Of a stretch of DNA of 64,000 nt, positions 12,358 to 28,669 are shown piece after piece (the stretch's first letter is position 1; every line of letters starts with the position of its first letter). Under the pieces are notes generated by a model. That model was given only the letters and a program-made list of their open reading frames with translations. It had not been told where the DNA came from and ran no database searches. The position numbers and the translations under genes were made by a program. Source of the DNA: Nonomuraea sp. MG754425 (lineage in GTDB: Bacteria; Actinomycetota; Actinomycetes; Streptosporangiales; Streptosporangiaceae); assembly GCF_021699195.1 (NCBI RefSeq), contig NZ_SSXE01000012.1, forward strand, positions 1 through 64,000, written 5' to 3'.

Positions 12358-13071
12358 ATGGCATCGCATCTGATCCAGGGCCGGACTGTGGGCATGCCCG
12401 TACGGGTGAGGGACGCCGAGGTGTGCAGCGTCCTCTACCCGGTGCGCGCCGACGCCGCCAGGGCGGTGATCGCGTACTCGGGGCTCGACGTGGCCGAGGT
12501 GCTGCCCGGCAAGGCCGTCTGCGTGCTGCTGTTCGTCGACTACCGCGACGGCGACCTCGACACCTACCACGAGTTCGGCATGGCCTTCCTCGTGCGCCCG
12601 CCGGGCTCGTCGGGCTCCATGGGGCCGGCCGAGCTGCGCCGGGCCGGGGTGTTCGTGCACTGGCTGCCGGTCGACCAGCAGTTCACGCTGGAGGCCGGGC
12701 GCACGTTGTGGGGGTTCCCGAAGGAGCTGGCCGACATCGAGTTGCGGCTGTCGTCGCCGTACAAGAGGTGCATCCTGCGCAAGGACGGGCGGCTCGTGCT
12801 CGACCTGCTGATCAAGCCGGGTGTGCCGGTGCCGGGCGGCGCGGCGATGGCGCCGCTCGACGCCTACACGCATCGCGACGGGGTCACGCGGCGTGTCCCC
12901 TGGTCCGTACGCGCCAGGGGAGCCCGGGTCCGGCCCGGCGGCGCGCTGATCCGCCTGGGCAACCATCCCATCGCCAAGGAGCTGAGCGAGCTGGGCCTGC
13001 CCAAGCGGGCGCTGTTCAGCACGACGATCTCGCACGCCGAGATGATCTTCGGCGAGGCCCGCGAGACATGA
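12358..13071 (+). CDS. Acetoacetate decarboxylase-family protein
   Basis: This 237-residue protein matches the ADC superfamily (PF06314) over its full length. The Schiff-base lysine is K122 in WGFPKELADIE, aligning with the PKK active-site region of clostridial acetoacetate decarboxylase. The residue after it is Glu rather than the second Lys that lowers the pKa of the catalytic lysine in true decarboxylases. Members with this change have been linked to aldolase-dehydratase or other non-decarboxylase activities, so the reaction is uncertain. The gene ends in a strong palindrome shared with the convergent GT2 gene. It seems unrelated to the flanking glycosylation genes. Confidence 0.85.
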   Translation: MASHLIQGRTVGMPVRVRDAEVCSVLYPVRADAARAVIAYSGLDVAEVLPGKAVCVLLFVDYRDGDLDTYHEFGMAFLVRPPGSSGSMGPAELRRAGVFVHWLPVDQQFTLEAGRTLWGFPKELADIELRLSSPYKRCILRKDGRLVLDLLIKPGVPVPGGAAMAPLDAYTHRDGVTRRVPWSVRARGARVRPGGALIRLGNHPIAKELSELGLPKRALFSTTISHAEMIFGEARET

Positions 13072-13095
13072 CCGCGGGCCGGACGTCCGGCGCGG
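13072..13095. terminator. Bidirectional stem-loop between convergent genes
   Basis: The 25 bp between the stop of the ADC-family gene (+) and the stop of the GT2 gene (-) are almost entirely one palindrome. The core GCCGGACGTCCGGC is a perfect 14-bp palindrome, extended by CCGC/GCGG arms with one bulged base. There is no T-tract, as is usual in high-GC actinomycetes. Confidence 0.6.
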
Positions 13096-13096
13096 C

Positions 13097-14011
13097 TCAG
13101 ACGATGGGCGGGCGGCCCAGCTTGACCATCCGCCAGGCCGTGCGCCAGGCCATCGGGCGGCGCTCGCCGGCCGAGGTGCGCAGGCCCTCGAAGAAACCGG
13201 AGAACCACGCCTTCAGCGCGCCCATCGCCCCGCGCTCGCGGATCACGGTGAGCACGACCCAGTTGGTCAGGTAGAGCACCGCCAGCGGCCACGGCAGGTT
13301 GCGCCGGGCCAGCCAGACCCGGTTGCGCGCGTTGAGCCGGTGGAACTCGGTGTGCCTGGTCGGCGGCACCTGCGGGTGGTACATCACCGTCTCGGCGTCG
13401 TACTCGATCCGGTAGCCCTCGCCGAGCAGCCGCCAGGCGAGGTCGGTCTCCTCGTGCGCGTAGAAGAACCGCTCGGGAAGACCGCCCACCTGGAGGAAGG
13501 CCGAACGCCTGATCGCCGACGCGCCGCCGAGGAACGTGGTGACCGGCGAGGAGCGCTGCGGGTCGCCGGCGCGCAGGCGCGGCACGTGGCGGCGCTGGCT
13601 GCCGCTCCCCTCGGGGTCCATGATGCGGAAGGAGATCACGGCCAGGTCGGGCTCGGTGGCGAACCGGTCGCGTACGTGCGCCACGACCTTCGGGCTGGCG
13701 TACCAGCCGTCGTCGTCGAGGAACAGCACGACATCGCCCGAGCACTCCTCCACGCCCCGGTTACGGCCGGCGGGGATGCCCGTGTTCTGGTCGAGCCGGA
13801 TCGCTTTCACGACCGCGGCCGACCCCTCGGGTGGCGTCGCCGACACCTGGGGCACGTCGGCACCGTTGCCTACGATCACCACCTCGACGTCGCCGTCGAC
13901 CTGGTTCAGCGCGGACTCGACCGCCCGGTTCAGCTCCGCGACCCGGTTGCCCATGGTGAGGATGACGCACGAGATCTTCAACGCATCACTGTCCTGACGC
14001 GTCGAGAACAC
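13097..14011 (-). CDS. GT2 glycosyltransferase (rhamnosyltransferase-like)
   Basis: This 304-residue protein has a GT-A domain with ISCVILTMGNR, an N-terminal substrate loop ending NTGIPAGRNRGV, the metal motif LFLDDDGWY and the C-terminal acceptor motif FFYAHEETDLAWRL, all typical of GT2 rhamnosyl or galactofuranosyl transferases. A hydrophobic stretch near residue 250 may associate with the membrane. It starts at GTG 14011, with no closer alternative before the domain. It follows the CDP-alcohol transferase gene in the same direction, after a 155-bp gap that may hold its own promoter. It is likely to add a sugar to the polymer built by the neighbouring genes; specificity is not readable. 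Confidence 0.87.
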   Translation of the reverse strand: MFSTRQDSDALKISCVILTMGNRVAELNRAVESALNQVDGDVEVVIVGNGADVPQVSATPPEGSAAVVKAIRLDQNTGIPAGRNRGVEECSGDVVLFLDDDGWYASPKVVAHVRDRFATEPDLAVISFRIMDPEGSGSQRRHVPRLRAGDPQRSSPVTTFLGGASAIRRSAFLQVGGLPERFFYAHEETDLAWRLLGEGYRIEYDAETVMYHPQVPPTRHTEFHRLNARNRVWLARRNLPWPLAVLYLTNWVVLTVIRERGAMGALKAWFSGFFEGLRTSAGERRPMAWRTAWRMVKLGRPPIV

Positions 14012-14166
14012 GAGCGGAGCATTCTTTCATGATCACCGAGTCTGCTGGTCTGCATGGTCTGGAATGGTGAAGCTAAGCGTATCGGAACCCGCAGTGAACC
14101 CCCACCGAACGGCGGACGTCCGATCAATACGACGGACGGGAGGCCCGCTCGGTTCCAGGCCCGAGT

Positions 14167-14934
14167 TCACGCGAGCCGCCTCGACGCCATGATGCTGATC
14201 AGATGCAGCACGGTCTGCAGCGCGGCGGCGGCCAGACAGGCCACCACGAGCACCCGCGTGGCCGTGAGGTCGCCGACGATCAGGTCGATCACCGCGGCCA
14301 CCACGGCGAGCAGCGACAGTTCGATCGGCTGCACGATCCGGTGGAACCGCGTCGCCGCCAGCACCCGCCGCCCCAGCCCAAGCAGCCCGGAGCGGAACTG
14401 CACGGCCGACGCCTCGCTCGAGGCCGCCAGCCCGCCCTTGGCCCTGGCCACCTCCACCAGGTCGCTCTCCGCCTTGATGAGGATGGCGCCGAGCGCGGCG
14501 GCGAAGCCGAACACGGTGTACCAGTCGGGCAGCACGGCCGAGGCCCGCCAGCCCAGCCCGGCCAGCACCGCGGCCTCGGCGAAGTACGCGCCCACCCGGT
14601 CGAGGTAGACGCCGGCCAGGGACGTCTTGCCCGTCCAGCGGGCCAGCTCGCCGTCGGAGCAGTCGAGCAACAGGTAGACCTGGATCAGCAGGGCGGCCAG
14701 CACGGCCGCCCACAGCCCCGGCAGCGCCAGCGCGAAGCCGGCCGCGACCCCCGCCACGGTCATGACCCAGGTGAGCTGGTTGGGCGTGACCGAGGTCTTG
14801 GTGAACAGCCAGGTGACGTAGATCGACAGGCGGCGCATGTAGAGCACGCCCGCCCAGTGCTCGCCGTTCCTGCGCTCCAGATGGCCCGGGGGCTGGGCCA
14901 CCTGCCGCAGCTCAGCTACCGAAGGCCCGGACAT
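14167..14934 (-). CDS. CDP-alcohol phosphotransferase with altered fourth Asp
   Basis: This 255-residue membrane protein belongs to the class I CDP-alcohol phosphatidyltransferase family (PF01066). The signature D-x2-DG-x2-AR-x8-G-x3-D-x3-D is present as DCSDGELAR, then G and D, but the last aspartate (proposed general base in solved structures) is alanine (DRVGA). Four or more further helices follow. Family members transfer a phospho-alcohol from CDP to a hydroxyl acceptor in the membrane. The start overlaps the dehydrogenase gene by 23 nt, indicating coupling. The missing Asp may be a subfamily trait with a different catalytic arrangement, or it may mean reduced activity. Its donor might be the CDP-polyol made by the LicC-like enzyme two genes upstream. 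Confidence 0.85.
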   Translation of the reverse strand: MSGPSVAELRQVAQPPGHLERRNGEHWAGVLYMRRLSIYVTWLFTKTSVTPNQLTWVMTVAGVAAGFALALPGLWAAVLAALLIQVYLLLDCSDGELARWTGKTSLAGVYLDRVGAYFAEAAVLAGLGWRASAVLPDWYTVFGFAAALGAILIKAESDLVEVARAKGGLAASSEASAVQFRSGLLGLGRRVLAATRFHRIVQPIELSLLAVVAAVIDLIVGDLTATRVLVVACLAAAALQTVLHLISIMASRRLA

Positions 14935-15970
14935 AGTCCCCCACCCGATCGCGGATCTCCGAGTCCTGCATGCGCAGGTGCTCCAGGATCGTGTAACGGC
15001 CGGGACGGGTGGCCGGGGCCAGCGCCACGACCTCGGCGAACTGCTCGCTGGTCAGCCCGATGTCGCCGGGCACGACCGGGAGCTGGTGCCTGCGCAGGCA
15101 GTCGACGACCTGCTTGACGCGGGCCGTGTCGTCGCGCAGGAAGAAGCAGAAGGCGGCGCCGATGCCGGCGAGCTCGCCGTGGTTGGAGGTGCCGGGGAAG
15201 AGCTGGTCCACGGCATGAAGGATCTCATGATCGCCACCGCTCGCGGGCCGGGACGACCCGGCGACCACCATCGACATGCCGGACAGGATCAGCGATTCGG
15301 CCAGCACGGTCAGGAACGCGTCGGACTCGATGGAGTCGGAGCGCCCGACGAGCGCCTCGGCGGCCGTGCGCGACATCGAGCAGGCCAGCCCGTCGATGGG
15401 CTCGCCACGCTCGACGTTGCCGAGCTGCCAGTCCTCGATCGCCGACAGGTTGCTGACGACGTCGCCCACACCGGCCCTGACCAGCGACTCGGGCGCGTTG
15501 TGCACGAAGTCGAGGTCGACCAGGATGGCCAGCGGCATCGGCACGCCGAACGAGCCCTTGCCGCCCTCGTAGATCAGTGAGGCGGTGGGCGAGCAGATGC
15601 CGTCGTGGGAGAGGTTGGTGGCCACCGCGACCATGGGGATGCCCGCCAGCGAAGCGGCGTACTTGGTCACGTCGATCGTCTTGCCGCCGCCGACGCCCAC
15701 GACCACCTCATAGGCCGCCTTGCGCAGGTCGGCGCCGAGCGAGACGGCCGCGTCGACCGTCCCGTCGGCCACCCTGAACACCTCTGCCTCGCCCAGCGTG
15801 GGCGCGATGAGGCTCTCGATGTGGTCGCCCTGGCCGAGACCGACGGCGACCGCGACCCTGCCGGAGGTCGCCACCCGGCTGTCGGCCAGCAGGGCGCCGA
15901 GCTGTGCCACCGCGCCGCGCCTGACGTCCATGGTCAGCGGCGCCGGCAGCATCCTCGCTAGAAGCGGCAT
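14912..15970 (-). CDS. sn-Glycerol-1-phosphate dehydrogenase-like (AraM/EgsA family)
   Basis: This 352-residue protein has the iron/zinc-dependent dehydrogenase fold. The NAD(P)-binding loop is GVGGGKTIDVTKY (about residues 93-105), and NLSHDGICSPTAS (about 119-131) is the hallmark of glycerol-1-phosphate dehydrogenases. Metal-ligand histidines appear in GGDHEILHAVD and TSNHGELAGIG, with an upstream Asp. The family reduces dihydroxyacetone phosphate to sn-glycerol-1-phosphate, the archaeal stereoisomer, which is uncommon in bacteria outside AraM/PcrB-type systems. ATG 15970 follows a GAGGGGG ribosome-binding site. It lies 10 bp after the LicC-like gene and overlaps the CDP-alcohol transferase gene, so the three form one transcription unit. 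Another polyol phosphate as product is possible. Confidence 0.85.
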   Translation of the reverse strand: MPLLARMLPAPLTMDVRRGAVAQLGALLADSRVATSGRVAVAVGLGQGDHIESLIAPTLGEAEVFRVADGTVDAAVSLGADLRKAAYEVVVGVGGGKTIDVTKYAASLAGIPMVAVATNLSHDGICSPTASLIYEGGKGSFGVPMPLAILVDLDFVHNAPESLVRAGVGDVVSNLSAIEDWQLGNVERGEPIDGLACSMSRTAAEALVGRSDSIESDAFLTVLAESLILSGMSMVVAGSSRPASGGDHEILHAVDQLFPGTSNHGELAGIGAAFCFFLRDDTARVKQVVDCLRRHQLPVVPGDIGLTSEQFAEVVALAPATRPGRYTILEHLRMQDSEIRDRVGDYVRAFGS

Positions 15971-15980
15971 CCGCGCCCCC

Positions 15981-16715
15981 TCAGTAGTGAACGGCTATGG
16001 CACGGGCCTTGGCCAGGTCGTCGTGGTTGTCCACCTCGACCCAGTCGACCGCTCCGATGGGCGCGGCGTGGATGAGCTCGCCGCGCTCGACCATCTCCTG
16101 GTAACCGTCCTCGTAGTAGAGCTGCGGGTCACGCTCGAACGTGGTCTTGAGCGCGTCGGCCAGCCGCTCGCCCGCGCCCGGCCTGATGAGGGTGGCGCCG
16201 ATGTACTCGCCGTAGGCCGTGGCCGGGTCCATGAGCTTGGTGATGCGGCGCAGCGAGCCCTCGGGCGAGAGGATGACCTTCATCTCCTCGTCGGCGAGCT
16301 GCTTGACGTCGTCGACGGCCAGCAGGATGTCGCTGGTCTCGGGGGCGGACAGCAGCGTCTTCTCGACCGAGACCGGGTGCACGGTGTCACCGTTGACCAG
16401 CAGCGCGCCCTGGGAGAAGTAGTCGCGCGCGCACCACAGGGAGTAGGCGTTGTTCCACTCCTCCGCCTTGTCGTTGTGCACGAGGGTGAGCTTGACGCCG
16501 TGCCGCTCCTCCAGGGCGTCCTTGCGCTCGTGTACGGCCTGCGCCGCGTAACCGACGACGACCACGACCTCCCGCAGGCCCACCTCGGCGAAATTGCGCA
16601 GCGAGATGTCCATGATCGTGGTTTCGCCGTCGACCGGCACGAGCGCCTTGGGCAGCGTGTCGGTGTACGGCCGCAGGCGTCGTCCGGCCCCAGCGGCCAG
16701 AACCATTCCCAGCAA
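15981..16715 (-). CDS. LicC-like sugar-phosphate/phosphocholine cytidylyltransferase family protein
   Basis: This 244-residue nucleotidyltransferase opens MVLAAGAGRRLRPYTDTLPKALVPV, the NTP-transferase loop with its arginine and lysine. Downstream are VVVVGYAAQ, the metal Asp in LLVNGDTVHP, and WVEVDNHDDLAKA near the C-terminus. The order and length match the phosphocholine cytidylyltransferase (LicC) branch; the alcohol phosphate cannot be fixed from sequence. I use TTG 16715 because GAGGAG lies six bases before it; ATG 16706 would remove three residues. It sits directly before the glycerol-1-phosphate dehydrogenase gene, so CDP-glycerol from glycerol-1-phosphate is an attractive but unproved product. 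Confidence 0.85.
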   Translation of the reverse strand: MLGMVLAAGAGRRLRPYTDTLPKALVPVDGETTIMDISLRNFAEVGLREVVVVVGYAAQAVHERKDALEERHGVKLTLVHNDKAEEWNNAYSLWCARDYFSQGALLVNGDTVHPVSVEKTLLSAPETSDILLAVDDVKQLADEEMKVILSPEGSLRRITKLMDPATAYGEYIGATLIRPGAGERLADALKTTFERDPQLYYEDGYQEMVERGELIHAAPIGAVDWVEVDNHDDLAKARAIAVHY

Positions 16716-16791
16716 CGTGCACTCCTCAGTCGAGCATGACTCCGATGGCCAAAGAGTATTCGTCTTTGGACCCCGTGCGGGTAATCCGGCG

Positions 16792-17415
16792 TTAGTCTTG
16801 CGTTCCCATATCGGCCGCTTCGACCCCTGTACGGGGTGCGACGAGCCAGCACGTCAGGCTCTCCCAGCCGAACAGCCCCCACAGGTAGAGCGCGAGCAAC
16901 ACGTAGCCGCCGGTCAGCCAGCCCGACAGCGCGACCAGCGAGACCAGCATCATCCGCCCGTCCCAGCCGAGGCCGGCCGTGGCCAGCCACGGCGGCGGGT
17001 AGACGTGCTGCCGCAACCGGTAGACAAGATCGTAGTGGTGGAAGGCCAGTGCCCCGAGCAAGACGAAGATCACCACGGGGTGCACGCCGTGGGCGAAGCC
17101 GCAGGCCGCGATGAAGGTGTACTCGATGAGCCGCAGGATCGGCGGCACGAGCCAGTCGAGGCGGCCGTCGTGCGGATGGGTGCTGCCGGGGCCGGCCAGC
17201 AGCAGGGTCACGGCGGGCGCGAACACGGCCAGGCCGTCGCTCCCGGCCACGCCGAGCAGCAGCAGCACGCCGGTGACGAACGCGCCGGCGATCACCGGCG
17301 GCAACGGCGGGAGCTGCCCGGCCACGAGCAGGCCCATGGCACGCGAGAGCGGCCCGTCGTCGCGGTAGGCCACGACGGTGCTGCTGGGAACGGGGGTCAT
17401 GTGGACCGAAATCAT
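16792..17415 (-). CDS. Small polytopic membrane protein (DUF5941-like) coupled to CDP-alcohol transferase
   Basis: This 207-residue protein has about five hydrophobic segments and a conserved-looking HHYDLVYRLRQ motif between helices. I recognise it as similar to the region annotated DUF5941 in actinomycetes; this is from memory and not certain. The ATG at 17415 overlaps the stop of the upstream CDP-alcohol phosphotransferase gene by 4 nt (ATGA), so it is translated from the same mRNA and probably works with that enzyme in the membrane. No catalytic motif is visible. The next gene in the same direction (LicC-like) starts 77 bp further on. Confidence 0.72.
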   Translation of the reverse strand: MISVHMTPVPSSTVVAYRDDGPLSRAMGLLVAGQLPPLPPVIAGAFVTGVLLLLGVAGSDGLAVFAPAVTLLLAGPGSTHPHDGRLDWLVPPILRLIEYTFIAACGFAHGVHPVVIFVLLGALAFHHYDLVYRLRQHVYPPPWLATAGLGWDGRMMLVSLVALSGWLTGGYVLLALYLWGLFGWESLTCWLVAPRTGVEAADMGTQD

Positions 17416-18887
17416 CGTGCCGACCTCGCGATCCGCCCGGCGAGCTGGTAGAGGGCCGCCACGCCGCCCCAGCCGAGCAGCGCCAGGAACGTGGCCCTGG
17501 AGCCCCAGATCACGGCGGTGACCGCGATCAGGGCCATGCGCTCCCCTATCGGCAGCACCACGATCTTCTTCAGCCATCGGGCGATCGTGTCGCGTTCGAG
17601 CCGCTGGGAGAGCTTGAGCACGCCTCCGGGGGCGCGGCGCACGTCCTGCGACTCCAGCAGCGAGCGGGCCGGTCGGCCCCACGTCGCGCCGACGCGGGCC
17701 GCGTCGGTCACGGCGCCCACGTACGTGTAGTCGACGGCGTGCCTGACGACCTGCAGCACCATCGCGGCCACCGCCAGGTACCAGATGTCGGCGGCGGCGG
17801 AGCCGAAGGCCAGGCCGACGTAGACGGCGTACTCCTTGAACCGGTCGGACATGCCGTCGGCCCACGCGCCCAGCGGCGAGAACGTGCGCGTGTAGCGGGC
17901 GAGCTGCCCGTCGAGGCAGTCGAGCGCGAACGACAGGATCAGCAGCACCGCCCCGGCCAGCCGCCCGCCCTCGGTGCCCGCCGAGAACCACAGGGCCGCC
18001 AGCAGCGCCAGCCCGGCCGAGATCGCGGTGACCGTGTTGGGGACGAGCTTGAGGCGTACGGCGGGCTTGATCAGGTGGCGGGTCCAGGAGGAGACGAAGA
18101 ACGTGGCGAAGAAGCCGTCGTCCTCCTTGACGGAGGTGTCGAGCCGGACCTTGGCCTCGTCCACCTCCGCCAGCCTGGTCAGGGCGGCGTCGGCGGAGTG
18201 CTGGCCCGCCACCCGGTCGGCGTGCAGCGGCCCGATGCCGGCCGCGCGCACGGCCACCCCGGACCTGACCAGCCCGACCAGCAGCAGATCGACCGCCTCG
18301 ACCGGCGTGACGGGGCCGAGCTTGCCCGCCTCGGCCAGCTCGGCCAGCTCGTCGGCGATGTCGGCCAGCGTGGCCAGGTCGGCCTCGCCCGTCTGCAGCA
18401 CGCCCCTGAAGGTGGCGTTCGCCTCGGGGACGAGGTGGAACGAGCTGCCGGCCGCGACGACCCGGCCGCCCTCGACGCGGGCGGGCGGGCGCAGCGGCCC
18501 GGGGGTCGCGTCGTGCGAGATCAGCGCGGCGCTGCCGTGGGAGGGATGCTCCAGCAGCGCCGCGAGGGCCTCGGTGTGGATCACCAGGTCGGCGGGCAGC
18601 ACGGCCACGGCGCTCGTGGCGGCGCGGGCGATCTTGGCCACGCCGCGCAGGTCGGTCGCGAGGCCGCCGTCGGCCGTCACGACCTGCACCCCGCGTACGG
18701 GCAGCGCGGCGAGTTGTTCGCCGAGGCGGTCGAGCAGCGTGCCGTCGCCGCTGGCCAGCCTGCACGCGGGTGTCGTGGCGAGCAGCACGACCGACGTGGT
18801 CGCGCTGTCGCGGGTCAAAGAGTCGGGCAAAGCTCCGGTCTCCTCCCGGTCGGGGTGGAGCACATGGACTGGGGGGTGCGTAGACAC
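17412..18887 (-). CDS. Nucleotidyltransferase-like / CDP-alcohol phosphotransferase fusion
   Basis: This protein of about 491 residues has an N-terminal region (about 30-260) with a GT-A nucleotidyltransferase pattern (SVVLLATTPACRL, GVQVVTADGG, AVLPADLV) but without the GGxGxR loop and clear metal residues. A CDP-alcohol phosphotransferase domain follows, with a complete D-x2-DG-x2-AR-x8-G-x3-D-x3-D motif (DCLDGQLAR ... GAWADGMSD), and then membrane helices. The order recalls the bifunctional inositol-1-phosphate cytidylyltransferase/DIPP synthases, but the cytidylyltransferase half looks inactive. The start is uncertain: GTG 18926, 18887 and 18863 are all in frame; the first would leave only 15 bp to the divergent gene. 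The product may be a phosphodiester in the membrane. Confidence 0.8.
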   Translation of the reverse strand: MSTHPPVHVLHPDREETGALPDSLTRDSATTSVVLLATTPACRLASGDGTLLDRLGEQLAALPVRGVQVVTADGGLATDLRGVAKIARAATSAVAVLPADLVIHTEALAALLEHPSHGSAALISHDATPGPLRPPARVEGGRVVAAGSSFHLVPEANATFRGVLQTGEADLATLADIADELAELAEAGKLGPVTPVEAVDLLLVGLVRSGVAVRAAGIGPLHADRVAGQHSADAALTRLAEVDEAKVRLDTSVKEDDGFFATFFVSSWTRHLIKPAVRLKLVPNTVTAISAGLALLAALWFSAGTEGGRLAGAVLLILSFALDCLDGQLARYTRTFSPLGAWADGMSDRFKEYAVYVGLAFGSAAADIWYLAVAAMVLQVVRHAVDYTYVGAVTDAARVGATWGRPARSLLESQDVRRAPGGVLKLSQRLERDTIARWLKKIVVLPIGERMALIAVTAVIWGSRATFLALLGWGGVAALYQLAGRIARSAR

Positions 18888-18905
18888 AGCGTAGCGACAG
18901 GTCAA
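18877..18905 (-). promoter_or_regulatory. Candidate sigma-70-type promoter in divergent region
   Basis: Reading leftward, TTGACC (18905-18900) and TACGCA (18882-18877) are separated by 17 bp, close to a vegetative actinomycete promoter. If it is real, transcription would start near 18870 and the fusion gene would start at GTG 18863 with almost no leader. The divergent IspD-like gene starts at 18942. This is a pattern match only. Confidence 0.3.
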
Positions 18906-18941
18906 CGCGATATCACGGAACAGCACCGTTACGCTGCCCCT

Positions 18942-20255
18942 ATGGATTCACGGCTGCGGTCGGTCGGAGTGCTCCTCGCGGGCGGCGTGGGGCAGCGGGT
19001 CGGGCTCGGCGTCCCCAAGCAGCTCATCGAGGTCGCGGGCCGGACGATCATCGAGCATTCGCTCGCCGTGTTCGAGGCCGCGCCCGAGATCGACGAGATC
19101 GTGGTGCTGATGACGCCCGGATACGCCGACCGGGTGCGCGAGATCGTCGCCAGGGGCGAATACCGCAAGGTCAGCCAGGTCGTGGACGGCGGCGCCAGCC
19201 GTACGGAGAGCACGTGGCGGGCGCTCGGGGCGCTCGGCGCGCACGAGTGCAATGTGCTGCTGCACGACGCTGTACGCCCCCTCCTGGAGCCCCGGATCAT
19301 CACGGAGTGTGTCAGGGCGCTGGAGGACCACGAGGCCGTCAACGTGGCGATCCCGAGCTCCGACACGGTCCTGGTGGCGGTCCCCGGAGCCGGCGGCGAG
19401 GTGATCGGCGAGGTGCTCGACCGGGCGCGGCTGCGGCGCAGCCAGACGCCGCAGTGCTTCCGGCTCTCGGTGATCCGGGAGGCGTACCGGCGGGCGATGG
19501 CCGATCCGGGCTTCGCCGGGCTGCCCGCCACCGACGACTGCGGGGTGGTGCTGCGCTACCTGCCCGAGGTGCCGATCCACCTGGTCCCGGGCAGCGAGCG
19601 CAACATCAAGGTGACCCATCCCGGCGACCTGCACATCGCCGACCTGCTCCTGCGGCTGCCCGTGTCCGTGCCGGAGGGCGACAGGGGGGCGCTGGCCGGG
19701 CAGGTGATCGTCGTCCTGGGCGGCGAGGAGGCGCGGCGGCCCGCCGGTATGGCCCCGGGAGGGTCCGAGCTGGCGCGGGAGGCCGCCCGCCACGGCGCGA
19801 CGGTGCACGTCCTGACGCGGGCCGGCGGCGTGCGGGTGGAGGACTTCGACTCCGTGGCCAAGGCGCTGGACGACGTGGGCGGGGCCGACCACGTGGTGCT
19901 CGCGGCGAGTCCTGGCCACCACGGCGACCTGGCGCGGACGGGCGGCGAGACCGTCGCCGACGCGGTCGCCGCCGGGCACCTGGCCGCGCTCAACGTGGCC
20001 CGCGCCGCCCGTCCGCACCTGCGCGGCAGCCTGCTGCTGGAGCTGCCGCCGGGCTCCGGCGCGCTGCACGAGTCCGGCGTCGCCGCCGTGACCGCACTGG
20101 CCCGCGCGCTGGCCCGCGAGTGGGCCGCCGACGGCGTCCGGGTCAACTGCGTCAATACCGGCGCCTCTCCGGCCGTGGTCGCGCAGACCTCGCTGGACAT
20201 CCTCATCTCCGGCCTAACCGGGCACGTCGTAGACGTTCGCGTTGACGGCACTTGA
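18942..20255 (+). CDS. IspD-like cytidylyltransferase / SDR-like fusion (Acs1/TarIJ-type CDP-ribitol synthase candidate)
   Basis: This 437-residue protein has an N-terminal IspD/TarI-like domain (about 1-235) with all key segments: LLAGGVGQRVGLGVPKQLI, ASRTESTWRAL, LLHDAVRPLL, RRSQTPQCFRL and ATDDCGVV. The C-terminal domain (about 240-437) has a short-chain dehydrogenase outline (ending ARALAREWAADGVRVNCVNTGA), but the YxxxK pair is absent (LHESG at that site) and the nucleotide loop is eroded. The layout matches Haemophilus Acs1, which reduces ribulose-5-phosphate and makes CDP-ribitol. Here the cytidylyl half looks active and the reductase half doubtful. The position beside a TagF-like gene argues for polymer synthesis rather than isoprenoid IspD. 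The stop is 26 bp before the next gene. Confidence 0.86.
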   Translation: MDSRLRSVGVLLAGGVGQRVGLGVPKQLIEVAGRTIIEHSLAVFEAAPEIDEIVVLMTPGYADRVREIVARGEYRKVSQVVDGGASRTESTWRALGALGAHECNVLLHDAVRPLLEPRIITECVRALEDHEAVNVAIPSSDTVLVAVPGAGGEVIGEVLDRARLRRSQTPQCFRLSVIREAYRRAMADPGFAGLPATDDCGVVLRYLPEVPIHLVPGSERNIKVTHPGDLHIADLLLRLPVSVPEGDRGALAGQVIVVLGGEEARRPAGMAPGGSELAREAARHGATVHVLTRAGGVRVEDFDSVAKALDDVGGADHVVLAASPGHHGDLARTGGETVADAVAAGHLAALNVARAARPHLRGSLLLELPPGSGALHESGVAAVTALARALAREWAADGVRVNCVNTGASPAVVAQTSLDILISGLTGHVVDVRVDGT

Positions 20256-20281
20256 CCTGGAGGTTGTTACCGTGCGGTCAC

Positions 20282-22018
20282 ATGAGGAGACTCATCGTGA
20301 TCGCGGCGCTGCTCGGCTGCTACCCCCTGCTGCTGGTGACGGCGCTCTGGCCGGCGCCGGTGCTGTTCGGGCTGGTCGCGGTGGCCTCGTACCTCGCCGA
20401 GTACGCCGCCCCGCGCGTCGGCCGGCCGCTGCCCGAGGCGCTCGGCAAGGTGCACCTCGGGATCACGCTGCGCTTCGCCGCCCGCGAGACCATGGCGCTG
20501 CTGCTGGTCGCGCGCACGGCGGGGGCCGACTCGCCGTGGTTCGCGGCGGCGGCGGCCGGGATCCTGGCGATCCACGTGGTCCGGGCCCTGCACGCGGGGC
20601 TGGCGCTGCGGTTGCGTCAGATGCTCGCCAGGATGCCGGTGACCACCCGCAACCTCGACGTCTCCGCGCTGCGCGTCCCGAAGCTGCCGCCGCCCGCGCT
20701 GCGTGACTCGCGCAGCGTGCCCTTCCTCTACCTGGACGCGCTACCGGTGCTCGGGGCCGTCCTCGGCGTCGTCGCCGCCACCGCGGGAGCGGCGCTGGCG
20801 CTGGTCGCGGGCCTGGCGGGGGCGCTCTCGCTCATCCCGTACGTTCGTCGCGCCAGGCCGCTCACCGACCGGGCGCGGGTGCTGGAGATCGTGGGCGAGC
20901 AGGTGGACGCGTACGCCCCCGAGGTCATCCTGTACTTCTCCGGCGCGACCGCCGCCGCCTACCAGGCCAGGATGTGGCTGCCCGTCCTCGAACGCAGCCC
21001 CAGGCGGGCCATCGTCGTGCTGCGCGAGCGCGGCATGGCCAGGCACCTGGAGTCCACGACGCTGCCGATGGTGTGCATCCCGTCGTCGGCCGACCTGATG
21101 AGCTTCCGCGCCCTGACCGGGGCCAAACTGTGCCTGTACGTGGCCAACGTCGGCAGGAACGTGCACATGCTGCGCATCCCGACCCTGCGCAGCGCGTTCC
21201 TCAACCACGGCGACAGCGACAAGGAGGCGTCGTTCAACCCGTTCTCCCGCGTGTACGACGAGGTGTGGGTGGCCGGTCCGGCCGGTCGCGACCGCTACCG
21301 CCGGGCCAAGGTGGGCGTCCGGGACGAGTCCATCCACGAGGTCGGGCGGCCCCAGCTCCAGGGCATCTCGACGGAGGGGCCGGGGCTGCCGTACCGGACC
21401 GTCCTGTACGCGCCCACCTGGGAGGGCTGGAACGACGACCTGTTCCACACCTCGCTGATCACCATGGGCCCGCGTATCGTGCGCGCCCTCCTGGACCACC
21501 GCCCCCCGCTGCGCGTCGTCTACAAGCCGCACCCGCTCACCGGGCACCGCGACAAGAGCGCCGTCCGGGCGCACCGGAGGATCGTCGCCATGATCGAGGC
21601 GGCGGAACTGGCCAGGTCGAAGGCCCGCCACCCCTCCCGCGCCGGCGACTCGGCGCCCCACATCCGGCACCTGGTCGTCGCGGGGCCCACACCGCACCTG
21701 TACGACTGCTTCAACCAGTGCGACCTGCTGATCAGCGACATCTCCAGCGTGGTGGCCGACTTCCTGGCCAGCGAGAAGCCGTACGCCGTGACGAACGTGG
21801 CCGGGCTGCCCGAGGGGGCCTTCCACGAGCGGTACCCGAGCACGGAGGCGGGCGTGCTGCTGGGCGAGGACCTGGCGGGGCTCGCCGGGTTCCTGGACGG
21901 GGAGGACACGATGGGGCGGGCCCGGGTGAAGCTGCGGGCCTACCTGCTGGGGCCGGAGTACCCGGACGCCATGGCCCGTTTCGACGCCGCCGTCGAGCGC
22001 GTCCTCGCCGGTCGGTGA
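20282..22018 (+). CDS. CDP-glycerol/CDP-ribitol glycero(ribitol)phosphotransferase family (TagB/TagF/TarL-like)
   Basis: This 578-residue protein has several hydrophobic segments in the N-terminal half (within about residues 1-200) and a C-terminal Glyphos_transf-type domain (PF04464). The domain shows LYAPTWEGWNDD, VYKPHPLTG and LLISDISSVVADFL, matching the TagF/TarL motifs. Those enzymes transfer polyol-phosphate units from CDP-polyol to a growing teichoic acid on the cytoplasmic face. ATG 20282 is chosen; GGAGG lies 19 nt upstream, which is long, and TTG 20252, overlapping the previous stop, is in frame. It follows the IspD-like/SDR gene in a two-gene operon that could both make and use CDP-ribitol or CDP-glycerol. 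It ends at a bidirectional terminator. Confidence 0.88.
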   Translation: MRRLIVIAALLGCYPLLLVTALWPAPVLFGLVAVASYLAEYAAPRVGRPLPEALGKVHLGITLRFAARETMALLLVARTAGADSPWFAAAAAGILAIHVVRALHAGLALRLRQMLARMPVTTRNLDVSALRVPKLPPPALRDSRSVPFLYLDALPVLGAVLGVVAATAGAALALVAGLAGALSLIPYVRRARPLTDRARVLEIVGEQVDAYAPEVILYFSGATAAAYQARMWLPVLERSPRRAIVVLRERGMARHLESTTLPMVCIPSSADLMSFRALTGAKLCLYVANVGRNVHMLRIPTLRSAFLNHGDSDKEASFNPFSRVYDEVWVAGPAGRDRYRRAKVGVRDESIHEVGRPQLQGISTEGPGLPYRTVLYAPTWEGWNDDLFHTSLITMGPRIVRALLDHRPPLRVVYKPHPLTGHRDKSAVRAHRRIVAMIEAAELARSKARHPSRAGDSAPHIRHLVVAGPTPHLYDCFNQCDLLISDISSVVADFLASEKPYAVTNVAGLPEGAFHERYPSTEAGVLLGEDLAGLAGFLDGEDTMGRARVKLRAYLLGPEYPDAMARFDAAVERVLAGR

Positions 22019-22036
22019 CGAGCGGCCGGGTGTGCG

Positions 22037-22063
22037 GCACCCCGCCGGGGCGCGGCGGGGTGC
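22037..22063. terminator. Bidirectional terminator hairpin
   Basis: A perfect 10-bp inverted repeat (GCACCCCGCC/GGCGGGGTGC) with a 7-nt loop lies between the convergent TagF-like gene (+) and the GT2 gene (-). Confidence 0.7.
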
Positions 22064-22073
22064 ACGGTGGACG

Positions 22074-23090
22074 TCAGCGGGGTGCCCGGGCCAGTTTCCT
22101 GGGGCTGGTCAGGAAGCCCCAGCCCCACGAGCAGTGCATGGTGGCGTACACGACGGGCAGGCGCAGCAGGGCGCCGGCCGACAGCCCGCCGCCGGTCAGC
22201 ACCGAGCCCGCCACGATGGCCAGGGCGTAACCGCCGGGCACGACCAGCGCCGGCGGGAAGAACGGCGACACGACCAGCCCGAGCAGCATGGCCAGCACCG
22301 CGGCGGGCGGCGCGAGGTAGCGCAGGTTGATCGTGCCCTCGTGGGTGCGCGAGACGACCCGCCGCCACCGGCCGTAGTGGAAGTACTGCTTGGCCAGCGC
22401 CTTGACGTTGGGTCGTGGCCGGTAGGAGACCCGCATGCGCGGCTGGAACCACACCAGCCCGCCCGTACGGCGGATGCGGTGGTTCATCTCCCAGTCCTGG
22501 GCGCGCTGGAAGTGCTCGTCGTAGCCGCCCACCCGGTCGAGGGCGGAGCGGCGGAAGACGCCGAGGTAGACGGTGTCGGCCGGCCCGGCGGTGCCCCCGA
22601 CGTGGAACGCGGCGGCGCCCACGCCGATCTTGGACGTCATGGCGCAGGCGACGGCCTGCTCGAAGGGGGTGATCCCTTCGGCGGCCATGATGCCGCCCAC
22701 GTTGTCGGCCCCGGTCTCGGCCAGCGTCTCGACGGCGACGCGCAGGTAGTCGGCGGGCAGCATGGCGTGCCCGTCGACCCTGGCGACGATGTCGTTGCGG
22801 GAGGCGGCGATGGCGGCGTTGAGCGCGTTGGGGGTGCGGCCCGTCGGGTTGGGCACCACCGTCACCCGCCGGTCGGCCGCCGCGATGGCGTCGGCGACCT
22901 CCTGGGTGCGGTCCTGGGACGGACCCACGGCGAGGACGACCTCGATCTCACCGGGGTAGCTCTGGGCGAGGATCATCTCGACGGCCTCGCGAAGGTGCCG
23001 CTCCTCGTTGAGGACCGGCATGACGACGGAGATGGGAGGCCAGGCGCGCGTGTCCGCGGGCGCGTGCGGCGAGTCGGGGAACTGCTTCAT
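22074..23090 (-). CDS. GT2 glycosyltransferase with C-terminal membrane region
   Basis: This 338-residue protein has a GT-A domain with ISVVMPVLNEERHLREA, VLAVGPSQDRT, a modified metal motif VARVDGHAML (Asp-Gly-His in place of DxD) and the acceptor motif RAQDWEMNHRIRR. Hydrophobic helices from about residue 260 to 320 suggest membrane association, as in succinoglycan-type GT2 enzymes. ATG 23090 is chosen; the longer frame to 23171 would run into the start region of the divergent LCP gene. The 79-bp divergent region must hold both promoters. It probably acts on the same surface polymer; the donor is unknown. Confidence 0.86.
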   Translation of the reverse strand: MKQFPDSPHAPADTRAWPPISVVMPVLNEERHLREAVEMILAQSYPGEIEVVLAVGPSQDRTQEVADAIAAADRRVTVVPNPTGRTPNALNAAIAASRNDIVARVDGHAMLPADYLRVAVETLAETGADNVGGIMAAEGITPFEQAVACAMTSKIGVGAAAFHVGGTAGPADTVYLGVFRRSALDRVGGYDEHFQRAQDWEMNHRIRRTGGLVWFQPRMRVSYRPRPNVKALAKQYFHYGRWRRVVSRTHEGTINLRYLAPPAAVLAMLLGLVVSPFFPPALVVPGGYALAIVAGSVLTGGGLSAGALLRLPVVYATMHCSWGWGFLTSPRKLARAPR

Positions 23091-23169
23091 GGCGGGGCTC
23101 ACGCTACTGTACGACCGTGGGAGGAGAGCAATCCAAAGCCGATCCTCCGGGGTGACAAAGGGGGACGGC

Positions 23170-24627
23170 ATGCGCGACCCGGGCGAGGAGGACGGCGGCG
23201 TGCTCGTGGGCGGGGACGCCTACGGCGACGTCAAACTGGCGACGCCCGTCCGCACCCGCAGGCCGCCGCGCAGAAGCGCCCGAGCCCGCCGCCGCAACGT
23301 GCTGGTCGCCGGGTTCCTGTCCACCGGCGTCCTGGTGACCACGGGCGTGGTGTGGGCGACGCCGCGCCAGATCGGCACCGTGGACGCGGGGGTGACCGCG
23401 ACGTCGTCCCGGGGCGCCGAGAACATCCTCATGGTCGGTGTGGACAAGCGCGACGACCTCAGCCGTCAGCAGCAGAACCGCCTCAAGCTGGGGCGCGAGT
23501 CCGGCCAGCGTACCGACACGATGATGGTCATCCATCTGTCGGAGGACCACAAGAAGGTCACGGTGGTCAGCCTGCCGCGCGACACCTGGACGACGATCCC
23601 GGGCAAGGGCGAGCACAAGATCAACGCGGCGTACCAGTTCGGCGGGCCCAAGCTGGCCAGGCAGACCGTGGAGGCGGTCACCGGGCTGGAGATCACCCGT
23701 TACATCGAGGTCAACATCCTGGGCTTCATCGACGTGGTCGACTCCCTCGGCGGGGTCACCGTCTGCACGCCCGTGCCGATCGACGACACCAAGATCGCGC
23801 TCAACCTCGCGGCCGGCACCCACCAGCTCGACGGCGTGCAGGCGCTCGGCTACGCCCGCACCCGCGCCACCGCCCGCTCCGACCTCGACCGCATCGACCG
23901 GCAGCAGCAGGTCATCTCGGCCCTGCTCAACCGGGCGCTGAGCGCCGACACGCTGGCGAACCCGGCCAAGCTGGCCGCCTTCGTCAACTCGACGCTGAGC
24001 ACGGTGAAGGTCGATCCCGACGACGGGCTGCTGGGGCTGGCCACGCAGATGCGGGACGTCTCGCTGGAGGACGTGAAGTTCGCCGAGGTGCCGCTGGCCA
24101 ACGTGGACTTCAAGGCGCCCACGGGCGAGTCCGCCGTGTTGTGGGACAAGCCGGCGGCCCGCGACCTGTTCGCCGGCATCGACGCCGACCGCGATCCGTC
24201 CGCGCCGATGCCGTCCGTTTCGTCGTCGGCTTCGGCCAAGCCGTCCGTCAAGCCGTCCACGGTCCCGCCCGGCGAGGTCACGCTGAAGGTCAAGAACGGC
24301 ACGCTCATCTCGGGCCTGGGGGCGCGGACGAAGGAGGCGCTGGTCGCGTACGGCTTCAAGGTGCCCGGTGAGGCGGGCAACACCTCCAAGCAGGACTACG
24401 AGCAGACCTTCGTCCGTTACGGCGAGGGGTTCGAGGCGCAGGCGAAGGCCGTGGCCGCCGCCGTCCCGGGGGCGGAACTGCGCAAGGTGGAGCTCGACGG
24501 GATCGAGCTGATCCTGGGCAGTGACCAGCCGAAAGTCCGGCAACCGAAGTCCACGGGCACGCCAAGTGCGAAGCCGAGCGTTACACCAACCACTAAAACG
24601 GCAATGCAGAACATATGTAAGAAATGA
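23170..24627 (+). CDS. LytR-CpsA-Psr (LCP) family ligase with LytR_C domain
   Basis: This 485-residue protein has a cytoplasmic tail with an Arg-rich stretch (about 28-42), a signal-anchor helix (about 44-63) and an LCP domain (about 75-260). Diagnostic segments are ILMVGVDKRDD, VSLPRDTW, VVDSLGGVTVCT and YARTRATARSDLDRIDRQQ. A Ser/Pro/Lys linker and a LytR_C-like domain (about 372-455) follow. The start ATG 23170 lies 3-4 bases beyond an AAAGGGGGA ribosome-binding site; GTG 23152 is the alternative. It is the second LCP gene of the locus and probably anchors a glycopolymer to peptidoglycan outside the cell. The C-terminal tail is unusually Thr/Pro/Lys-rich and ends with a cysteine-containing NICKK. 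Confidence 0.9.
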   Translation: MRDPGEEDGGVLVGGDAYGDVKLATPVRTRRPPRRSARARRRNVLVAGFLSTGVLVTTGVVWATPRQIGTVDAGVTATSSRGAENILMVGVDKRDDLSRQQQNRLKLGRESGQRTDTMMVIHLSEDHKKVTVVSLPRDTWTTIPGKGEHKINAAYQFGGPKLARQTVEAVTGLEITRYIEVNILGFIDVVDSLGGVTVCTPVPIDDTKIALNLAAGTHQLDGVQALGYARTRATARSDLDRIDRQQQVISALLNRALSADTLANPAKLAAFVNSTLSTVKVDPDDGLLGLATQMRDVSLEDVKFAEVPLANVDFKAPTGESAVLWDKPAARDLFAGIDADRDPSAPMPSVSSSASAKPSVKPSTVPPGEVTLKVKNGTLISGLGARTKEALVAYGFKVPGEAGNTSKQDYEQTFVRYGEGFEAQAKAVAAAVPGAELRKVELDGIELILGSDQPKVRQPKSTGTPSAKPSVTPTTKTAMQNICKK

Positions 24628-24661
24628 GCATAATTTTCTGCGTGTCGGGCAGGTGAGACCC

Positions 24662-25009
24662 ATGGTGGTCAGGTATTGGCGTGAGGAGCCCTGTACGGTT
24701 CTGCACGTCGTAGGCGACCTCGACGTGGCCGGAGCCCCCAGGCTGCGGGCCGAACTGGAACAGGCGCTGGCCGCCGCCGATCCGCTCAACCTGGTCGTCG
24801 ACCTCACGGAGGTGCCGTTCTGCGACTCCGTCGGGCTCGGCGTGCTGGTGGCCGCGTTCAACCACGTCCGGCGGATGAACGGGCGCATGATTCTGGTGGT
24901 CGCGCCCGGAATGATCCGGCGGCTGCTGACGATCACCCATCTCGATCGGCATTTCGAGACGAGCGACTCGCTCAACGAGGCGCGCCAGGCGTTCGCCGGC
25001 GCCGCCTGA
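24662..25009 (+). CDS. STAS-domain anti-sigma factor antagonist
   Basis: This 115-residue protein is one STAS domain. The phosphorylation site region reads VPFCDSVGLGVLVAAF, with Ser in the conserved position of SpoIIAA-type proteins (usually DSSGLG). Such proteins bind a cognate anti-sigma kinase and free the sigma factor when unphosphorylated. No anti-sigma or sigma gene is nearby, so the partner is encoded elsewhere. ATG 24662 is chosen; GTG 24653 would add three residues. It starts 35 bp after the LCP gene, so it may be expressed from the same transcript, which would link wall assembly to a stress regulator only by position. Confidence 0.88.
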   Translation: MVVRYWREEPCTVLHVVGDLDVAGAPRLRAELEQALAAADPLNLVVDLTEVPFCDSVGLGVLVAAFNHVRRMNGRMILVVAPGMIRRLLTITHLDRHFETSDSLNEARQAFAGAA

Positions 25010-27847: not shown

Positions 27848-28669
27848 CTACTGCCAGATGGCGGCGTACTTGCCGTTCTCCGCGTTGACCTGCACGGGCG
27901 CGAGACCCTTGCCCTTGAGGTCGTTGAAGCGCTTCTGGTAGCCGGAGGCGCTCATGTCCACGTAGTGGGCCCAGGACCGGACGCCGTCCTTGCGCCACAC
28001 GGCCGCGTACGTGCCGTCGGGCGCCACGGAGATCTTGATGGGCCGGAAGCCCTTCTCCTTCTTGGCGTAGAACTCGGCCTCGTGCTGCTTGAAGCTCTTG
28101 CCGTAGGTGTAGTACCAGGCGCCGCCGGTGTTGGCGCTCCACACGGCGGCGTACCGGATGTCGCCCGGGGTGCCGTACGCGTCCACCGAGGTCAGTGCCA
28201 GGCCCTTGCCGAGGGCCTGCTTGTTGGCGGCGGCGAAGCCGTCGGGCGTGAGGTTCGACCTGCTGAGGAACGCGCTGCGCTTCTTCTCGAAGACGGCGGT
28301 GAACACCGGCGAGTCGGCCGGGCCGGTGGCGGAGACGGAGACCGGCTGAAGGCCCCGCCCCATCTCCTTGTCGAACTGCTCCTGGAACTCGGCGGCCGAC
28401 ATGCCCTGCCAGGTGCTCCACTCGGTGGCGGCGCCGTCCTTGACCCAGACGGCCGCGTACCGCTCGCCGTCCGAGACGTTCACCGTGATCGGCCGGTAGC
28501 CCTGCGCCTTGAGCTGCTTCACCCGGGCGACGCTCTGGGTGGCGCTCAGGTTGTGGTAGGCCACCCAGGCGGACGCCTGCGCTCCGGCGGCCGGTGCCGC
28601 CGCCGCCATCGGCACGGCGGCTCCGGCCAGCACGGAGGTGATGATCGCGATTTTCCCTGCGGGTCGCAT
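27848..28669 (-). CDS. Secreted bacterial tandem repeat domain protein (BTRD1-like)
   Basis: This 273-residue protein has a signal peptide (about 1-30, ending PAAGAQA) and then five tandem units of about 48 residues. Each unit has an aromatic-rich segment, a helix, the pattern GxxPxxVxxxxG and the ending YAAVWxxxG (clear at about residues 70, 165, 215 and 270). This matches the Pfam family named bacterial tandem repeat domain 1 (PF17660), which accompanies secreted hydrolases. No catalytic domain is fused here. It is likely extracellular; a binding or inhibitor role is possible. The stop codon sits in the convergent gap with the lipoprotein gene. Confidence 0.82.
   Translation of the reverse strand: MRPAGKIAIITSVLAGAAVPMAAAAPAAGAQASAWVAYHNLSATQSVARVKQLKAQGYRPITVNVSDGERYAAVWVKDGAATEWSTWQGMSAAEFQEQFDKEMGRGLQPVSVSATGPADSPVFTAVFEKKRSAFLSRSNLTPDGFAAANKQALGKGLALTSVDAYGTPGDIRYAAVWSANTGGAWYYTYGKSFKQHEAEFYAKKEKGFRPIKISVAPDGTYAAVWRKDGVRSWAHYVDMSASGYQKRFNDLKGKGLAPVQVNAENGKYAAIWQ

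Follow-up and report, generated by a model that had tools for sequence, protein, structure and literature searches.

A gene cluster at positions 13097..24627 of the window, by which we mean the whole analyzed stretch of 64,000 nucleotides from contig C14 of the 11.3 Mb draft genome of Nonomuraea sp. MG754425, places a gene for an enzyme resembling glycerol-1-phosphate (G1P) dehydrogenases (G1PDHs) next to one for a LicC-like cytidylyltransferase (NT). The cluster appears real and conserved and is best read, in a judgment that is about evenly balanced, as a pathway through cytidine diphosphate (CDP)-1-glycerol that may feed the cell surface. Several described systems resemble it. Wall teichoic acid synthesis, which involves TagD/TagF, TarI/TarJ, and LCP proteins, shares with it CDP-polyol donors, a TagF-like protein, and an LCP transferase; however, the cluster contains a G1PDH-like enzyme, stronger Glyphos_transf proteins (C446 and C629) are located elsewhere in the genome, and a TagF homologue was not found in 51 of 80 related loci. 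The IspD-SDR enzymes of CDP-ribitol synthesis, presumably those named Bcs1/Acs1, likewise have an IspD domain fused to a short-chain dehydrogenase/reductase (SDR) next to a TagF-like gene, whereas the SDR part of the window protein is motif-less and its IspD half may be the enzyme of the cell's methylerythritol phosphate (MEP) pathway.

The glycerophosphoinositol pathway of Archaeoglobus also involves G1P, activation by cytidine triphosphate (CTP), and a transferase like AF2299, a protein of the same organism with an N-terminal nucleotidyltransferase-like domain, AF2299 being assigned to the pathway by inference; the present cluster, however, is bacterial, contains a LicC-type cytidylyltransferase, and has GT2, LCP, and DUF5941 neighbors. 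The accessible part of PMC8262930 (2021) describes the Archaeoglobus cytidylyltransferase for CDP-1-glycerol as yet unidentified and CDP-1-glycerol as likely absent in bacteria, in which surface glycerol-1-phosphate seems to derive from other donors. According to the same text, some bacterial glycerol-phosphate cytidylyltransferases take both enantiomers in vitro; thus, the CDP-1-glycerol step would be chemically easy.

The AraM-PcrB system of Bacillus includes a bacterial G1PDH belonging to the same family, as stated in the accessible parts of PMC8262930 and PMC6431249. In the present genome, however, the coupled partner of G1PDH is a cytidylyltransferase, and PcrB was not found in it or in any of the Nonomuraea genomes (0/21) by a search that recovered 7 of 14 controls; an archaeal-type ether lipid was therefore rejected for Nonomuraea as the sink of G1P. 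This absence need not hold outside the genus, since some Streptomyces carry a G1PDH plus both archaeal prenyl transferases (Coleman et al., PMC6431249, in its accessible part).

A Streptomyces region with a CDP-alcohol transferase, a GT2 enzyme, a nucleotidyltransferase, tagG, tagH, and araM is assigned to teichoic-acid biosynthesis in PMC13118837, and it probably shares the core genes of the cluster in synteny, whereas neither tagG nor tagH turned up in the scanned open reading frames (ORFs) of the window. The accessible part of that paper proposes no pathway, stereochemistry, or CDP-1-glycerol for the region. In a literature search in which most subscription journals were outside coverage, none of the titles or abstracts listed proposed the pathway, which the earlier note on this DNA had not known to be described. 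A multi-omics study of Planobispora rosea (PMC8269224) discusses teichoic acids, and nothing on this cluster was seen in its accessible part.

Gene arrangement and conservation

Families were assigned by profile search (Pfam, NCBIfam), and the starts of DUF5941 and CDPb were set by sequence reading; the families that the earlier note had named were recovered at the positions and in the order that it gave. In the following, named loci are the best 80 of 528 relatives, chosen by the dehydrogenase, in which homologues were scored by tblastn anywhere in the locus.

13097..14011, minus strand: GT2a, GT2 glycosyltransferase (PF00535, 63 bits; homologue in 80/80 named loci)
14167..14934, minus strand: CDPa, CDP-alcohol phosphotransferase-like protein with Ala at D4, the fourth signature aspartate (PF01066, 28.5 bits)
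14912..15970, minus strand: G1P-dehydrogenase-like Fe-ADH_2 protein (PF13685, 106.7 bits)
15981..16715, minus strand: NT, LicC-like cytidylyltransferase (PF00483, 50.3 bits)
16792..17415, minus strand: DUF5941 membrane protein (PF19365, 86 bits)
17412..18830 (ORF open to 18926), minus strand: CDPb, N-terminal domain plus CDP-OH_P_transf, with a likely TTG start at 18830 behind GGAGGAG
18831..18941 (111 bp), no strand: divergent intergenic spacer between the gene starts of the two arms
18942..20255, plus strand: IspD-like cytidylyltransferase with a degenerate SDR tail (PF01128, 159.1 bits)
20252..22018, plus strand: TagF-like (Glyphos_transf) protein (PF04464, 28.3 bits, C-terminal part)
22074..23171, minus strand: GT2b, GT2 glycosyltransferase (PF00535, 78.9 bits; homologue in 72/80 named loci)
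23008..24627, plus strand: LCP family glycopolymer transferase (PF03816, 163.8 bits; homologue in 69/80 named loci)

The minus arm runs in transcription order from CDPb through DUF5941, NT, the dehydrogenase, and CDPa to GT2a; the DUF5941 start codon overlaps the CDPb stop (ATGA), NT is separated from the dehydrogenase by 10 bp, and the dehydrogenase overlaps the start of CDPa by 23 bp. The plus arm consists of the IspD gene with its SDR-like tail followed by the overlapping TagF-like gene. No sigma-70 consensus was seen in the 111-bp spacer, and a scan of 12900-24700 for a consensus promoter or terminator returned none. Motifs back most of these families, as the earlier note had held for all of them; the exceptions are the motif-less SDR part, CDPa, which lacks one signature residue, and the N-terminal domain of CDPb, in which GxGxR is missing (by eye).

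The coupling and conservation of these genes, like their families and motifs, can be read from the sequence itself. NT adjoins the dehydrogenase in all 80 named loci, with gaps of -10 to 175 bp, and homologues of NT, CDPa, and GT2a each accompany it in 80/80, so that the gene order is well beyond chance. Homologues are also present for DUF5941 (76/80), IspD (74/80), CDPb (60/80), and TagF (29/80); since 18 of the 80 loci are interrupted by contig ends, some of the absences are not real. The gene-neighborhood check that the earlier note had called for accordingly came out in its favor, the order being conserved. Among 20 fetched regions, NT lies next to the dehydrogenase in 18, the two exceptions being second copies (L046 and L047), and CDPa is present in 16. 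The dehydrogenase itself is up to 97% identical in the closest Nonomuraea contigs among the named loci and is present in 19/19 genomes of the genus, this one included, and in 24/31 genomes overall. At the class level, the dehydrogenase query had some match in 124 of 296 genomes, the weak matches (below about 75 bits) being probably other Fe-ADH proteins. Fusions of NT with G1PDH were not found among 120 listed of the 4303 homologues passing the cut-off.

The dehydrogenase, NT, and the CDP-alcohol transferases

The dehydrogenase scores 234.5 bits with the NCBIfam model for G1PDH and 63.2 bits with that for glycerol dehydrogenase. The solved G1PDHs 4rgq, 4rfl, and 5fb3 match it at 1.1e-39 (4rgq) to 9.3e-37, and glycerol dehydrogenases other than 3ce9 match at 2.6e-12 or worse. 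Of 100 homologues, 99 have all four of DG[IL]xSP, the signature, and GxGD, SGxxHE, and HGE, taken to be the metal-ligand positions (D/H/H), and the window protein has the Fe-ADH_2 domain, G1PDH signature, and D/H/H motifs of the EgsA/AraM family. A G1PDH-like character of the dehydrogenase is thus supported by score, signature, motifs, and coupling to the NT gene, with the reservation that the NCBIfam cut-off is not reached.

The closest solved relative of NT is LicC (1jyk, 58 bits, residues 4-102); further structural matches, nearly full length, are 4jd0 (46 bits), presumably an inositol-phosphate cytidylyltransferase, and the phosphonate enzyme 6pd1 (37 bits). NT is a LicC-like nucleotidyltransferase, in which an N-terminal LAAGxGRR and NGDT, presumably functional motifs of the nucleotidyltransferase domain, are kept in 97 of 98 sequences. 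Since these solved relatives are LicC, 4jd0, and 6pd1, and the best NCBIfam model, a UDP-glucose enzyme, scores 69.3 bits against a cut-off of 400, the substrate of NT is taken from gene order.

Both CDP-alcohol transferases have AF2299 as their best structural match (45.7 bits for CDPa), and their nearest NCBIfam models are DIPPS, AIPS, and PIPS, all below cut-off. CDPa departs from the class I signature D1xxD2G1xxAR...G2xxxD3xxxD4 at its last position: of 96 sequences, 72 have His at D4, 23 have Ala, and 1 has Asp, the fourth signature Asp being gone in 95/96. D4 is likely the catalytic base of class I CDP-alcohol phosphotransferases, and a D-to-N exchange at the D4 position of MtPIPS nearly abolished activity, as given in the accessible part of PMC4634129. 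The notion of two working CDP-alcohol transferases is therefore unsupported. CDPb joins a degenerate nucleotidyltransferase-like N-terminal domain to a CDP-alcohol phosphotransferase domain with the complete signature, the arrangement of AF2299, in which such a domain is linked to the membrane domain and which is reported to hold CDP-glycerol. The complete signature is present in the window CDPb and in 9 of 9 aligned sequences; by pattern it was seen in 67 of 75, the other 8 giving no pattern match. DUF5941, a separate gene in the window, shares a single reading frame with CDPb in both L058 and L059.

The proposed CDP-1-glycerol pathway and its alternatives

In the proposed pathway, all of whose reactions are predicted, as are its acceptor, exporter, and end product (a polymer or lipid), the Fe-ADH_2 enzyme would reduce dihydroxyacetone phosphate to sn-glycerol-1-phosphate, which the LicC-like NT would join with CTP to give CDP-1-glycerol. 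At the cytosolic face of the membrane, the AF2299-like CDPb, aided by DUF5941 and the signature-defective CDPa, would then transfer glycerol-1-phosphate to a phosphorylated or membrane-bound acceptor; the GT2 enzymes may extend or decorate the product, which export and LCP attachment would deliver to the wall as a surface glycan or phosphoglycolipid. The cluster is bordered by LCP and GT2 genes; in L057 (5455-11254), the NT-G1PDH pair lies beside GlfT2 and an ABC exporter, with UDP-galactopyranose mutase (Glf) and a GT2 gene further off, which looks like a galactan-like cluster; these surroundings support a surface product, without naming it. The pathway sketched in the earlier note is thus partly supported: the G1PDH-like enzyme, the coupling of NT, the likeness of CDPb to AF2299, the failure to find PcrB, and the GT2/LCP surroundings speak for it, and the pair of working transferases, the IspD/SDR enzyme, and TagF as a core component are not supported.

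Several observations weigh against the CDP-1-glycerol pathway. Gene order carries much of it, the assignment of CDP-1-glycerol to NT included, and since the loci were selected by the dehydrogenase, the frequency of NT without G1PDH is not readable from the counts, no search for such cases having been made. L057 and L060 are without a CDPa homologue by tblastn, and in L057 no CDP-alcohol transferase was found at all. The structural model of CDPb is weak (mean predicted local distance difference test score, pLDDT, of 55.7 from 9 sequences). A second CDPb-DUF5941 pair, with a CDPb that is 35% identical, is located elsewhere in the genome (L216:4502-6771, contig C158), adjoining a putative undecaprenyl diphosphate synthase (read by eye), so that the pair is not tied to G1PDH. 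Pfam scans of 34 of the 44 window ORFs picked by composition revealed no ABC exporter. The dehydrogenase stays below the 413-bit cut-off of the NCBIfam G1PDH equivalog (PRK00843), and thus it is G1PDH-like by sequence and not a member of that equivalog; moreover, its top PDB match is 3ce9 (1.7e-42), deposited as a glycerol dehydrogenase. In addition, L046:9538-10581 and L047:9550-10593 are second G1PDH-like genes (60-61% identical) without NT, located among transport, amidohydrolase, ROK, and enolase-type genes, in genomes that also carry another copy of the dehydrogenase (90-96% identical), and thus the family may have another role.

The last of these points, the score under the cut-off, 3ce9, and the second copies among transport and catabolic-looking genes, would fit a dehydrogenase that reduces another ketose phosphate or is catabolic, in an ordinary teichoic-acid-type wall cluster without glycerol-1-phosphate, the label that PMC13118837, in its accessible part, gives the Streptomyces region. 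We consider this unlikely, as the G1PDH signature and motifs persist in nearly all homologues (99/100), and the solved G1PDHs match the protein far more closely than any glycerol dehydrogenase except 3ce9.

G1P could also be the acceptor, with NT activating another phosphate-alcohol of the inositol or choline type, and a CDP-alcohol transferase joining that alcohol, or CDP-diacylglycerol, to G1P to yield an archaeal-handed phosphoglycolipid. The enzymes of the DIPPS, AIPS, and PIPS models, nearest to CDPa and CDPb if below cut-off, use a phosphorylated acceptor, and LicC is a phosphocholine enzyme. However, no two genes of the cluster are tied more closely than NT and the dehydrogenase, which stay together even in L057 and L060, for which no CDPa was found, and AF2299-type donor sites fit the small CDP-glycerol, which makes this arrangement rather improbable. 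A cytosolic solute or head group of the glycerophosphoinositol type, which the AF2299-like CDPb, the inositol-phosphate-using relatives, and the described archaeal use of CDP-1-glycerol (feeding glycerophosphoinositol, in the accessible part of PMC8262930) would suit, is quite improbable in view of the constant GT2 genes, the common LCP neighbors, and the galactan and exporter context of L057, all of which point outward.

For the CDP-1-glycerol pathway, we would tentatively propose, as a possible if doubtful whole, that a LicC-type enzyme new for this substrate supplies CDP-1-glycerol in Nonomuraea, its relatives, and probably Streptomyces, and that these bacteria place archaeal-handed glycerol phosphate onto a surface glycan or lipid via an AF2299-like transferase and a conserved partner without the catalytic aspartate, a CDP-polyol-type enzyme having replaced canonical IspD. 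If the cluster works in the way proposed for the CDP-1-glycerol pathway, a large group of actinomycetes would break the rule of no CDP-1-glycerol in bacteria with a dedicated pathway; the actinobacterial G1P dehydrogenases used in lipid-divide arguments would gain a job; and a chiral surface marker, testable by GlpQ-type stereospecific digestion, would be predicted.

The plus arm and isoprenoid synthesis

The window IspD protein lacks the Gly-rich nucleotide motif and YxxxK of SDRs, both of which are present in L091, and its SDR scores (adh_short_C2 21.5, cut-off 27; adh_short 18.7, cut-off 26.6) compare with 93 and 107.6 for the cluster copy of G003; it does not have the make-up of a Bcs1-type IspD-SDR CDP-ribitol synthase. 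Among the 74 named loci with an IspD match, 39 encode a plain IspD, no longer than 265 residues, and the SDR tail of 21 has retained GGxxGIG. TagF accompanies 20 of these 21 and 9 of the 53 others (Fisher p 3e-10), in a pattern-based comparison that is uncorrected for kinship and in which the L171 matches lie far from the cluster. In the window, the SDR motifs are lost and the TagF-like gene is kept, its PF04464 score exceeding the cut-off (28.3 versus 22.1 bits). TagF is not part of the cluster core, since 51 of 80 relatives yielded no homologue, a count that includes loci cut by contig ends. The stronger Glyphos_transf proteins C446 and C629 were rejected as cluster members owing to their location. 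Around C629 (L213:9485-15297), a CDP-alcohol transferase with the complete signature lies near an 881-residue GT2-Glyphos_transf protein, in what is probably a wall-polymer locus of its own. The plus arm (IspD, TagF) may be the remnant of a separate CDP-polyol module.

In a tree from which L118 and L092 were left out and in which G318_L081 was labeled a cluster copy without a check of its distance to G1PDH, canonical IspD (99/100) and Firmicute TarI (100/100) form separate groups, and the cluster proteins and IspD-SDR fusions are placed between them in an order that is not well supported. The window protein is outside both groups and below both NCBIfam cut-offs (ispD 173.7 versus 181.3 bits; TarI 120.2 versus 166), and falling outside the canonical clade lowers its membership, not its MEP role. 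Its PDB matches favor IspD (2xwl, 100 bits) over TarI (86.9 bits), whereas the SDR fusion of L116 is nearer TarI (126.2 bits) than IspD (106).

No strong IspD homologue other than the IspD half was found in this genome; C25 (L065), a candidate second IspD, was rejected as GlmU, read by eye. G1PDH was mapped in 19 genomes of the genus, G317 and G318 being left out, and in each of the 19 a strong IspD, scoring 115 bits or more, sits at a distance of about 4-5 kb from it; only G003 has another strong one elsewhere, the other matches reaching at most 45 bits. Beyond the genus, G280, G236, G253, G093, G262, and G019 have a single strong IspD beside G1PDH; G192 has a second strong IspD, and G021 and G117 have a canonical one in addition; canonical IspD is the only one in G111, G290, and G181, and G028 and G258 have one IspD, away from G1PDH. 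IspF is present in the window genome (contig C303, L100), directly preceded by a CarD-like gene (by eye) with no ispD between them. Because it is the sole strong IspD in a genome with IspF and no ispD at CarD-IspF, the cluster IspD probably also serves isoprenoid synthesis, and canonical IspD has possibly been replaced in Nonomuraea and several related genera; a non-canonical isoprenoid enzyme is thus predicted in these bacteria. Consequently, with its SDR motifs gone and its IspD half perhaps the sole MEP IspD, a working IspD/SDR polyol-phosphate enzyme, as the earlier note envisaged, is not supported in this strain.

Adjoining GT2a, an acetoacetate decarboxylase-like gene (window 12358-13071), for which 46 of 80 named relatives have a homologue, has no obvious role in the pathway. 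Additionally, window 27848-28669 encodes a BTRD1-repeat protein (185.8 bits) that is polyglycine-hydrolase-like.

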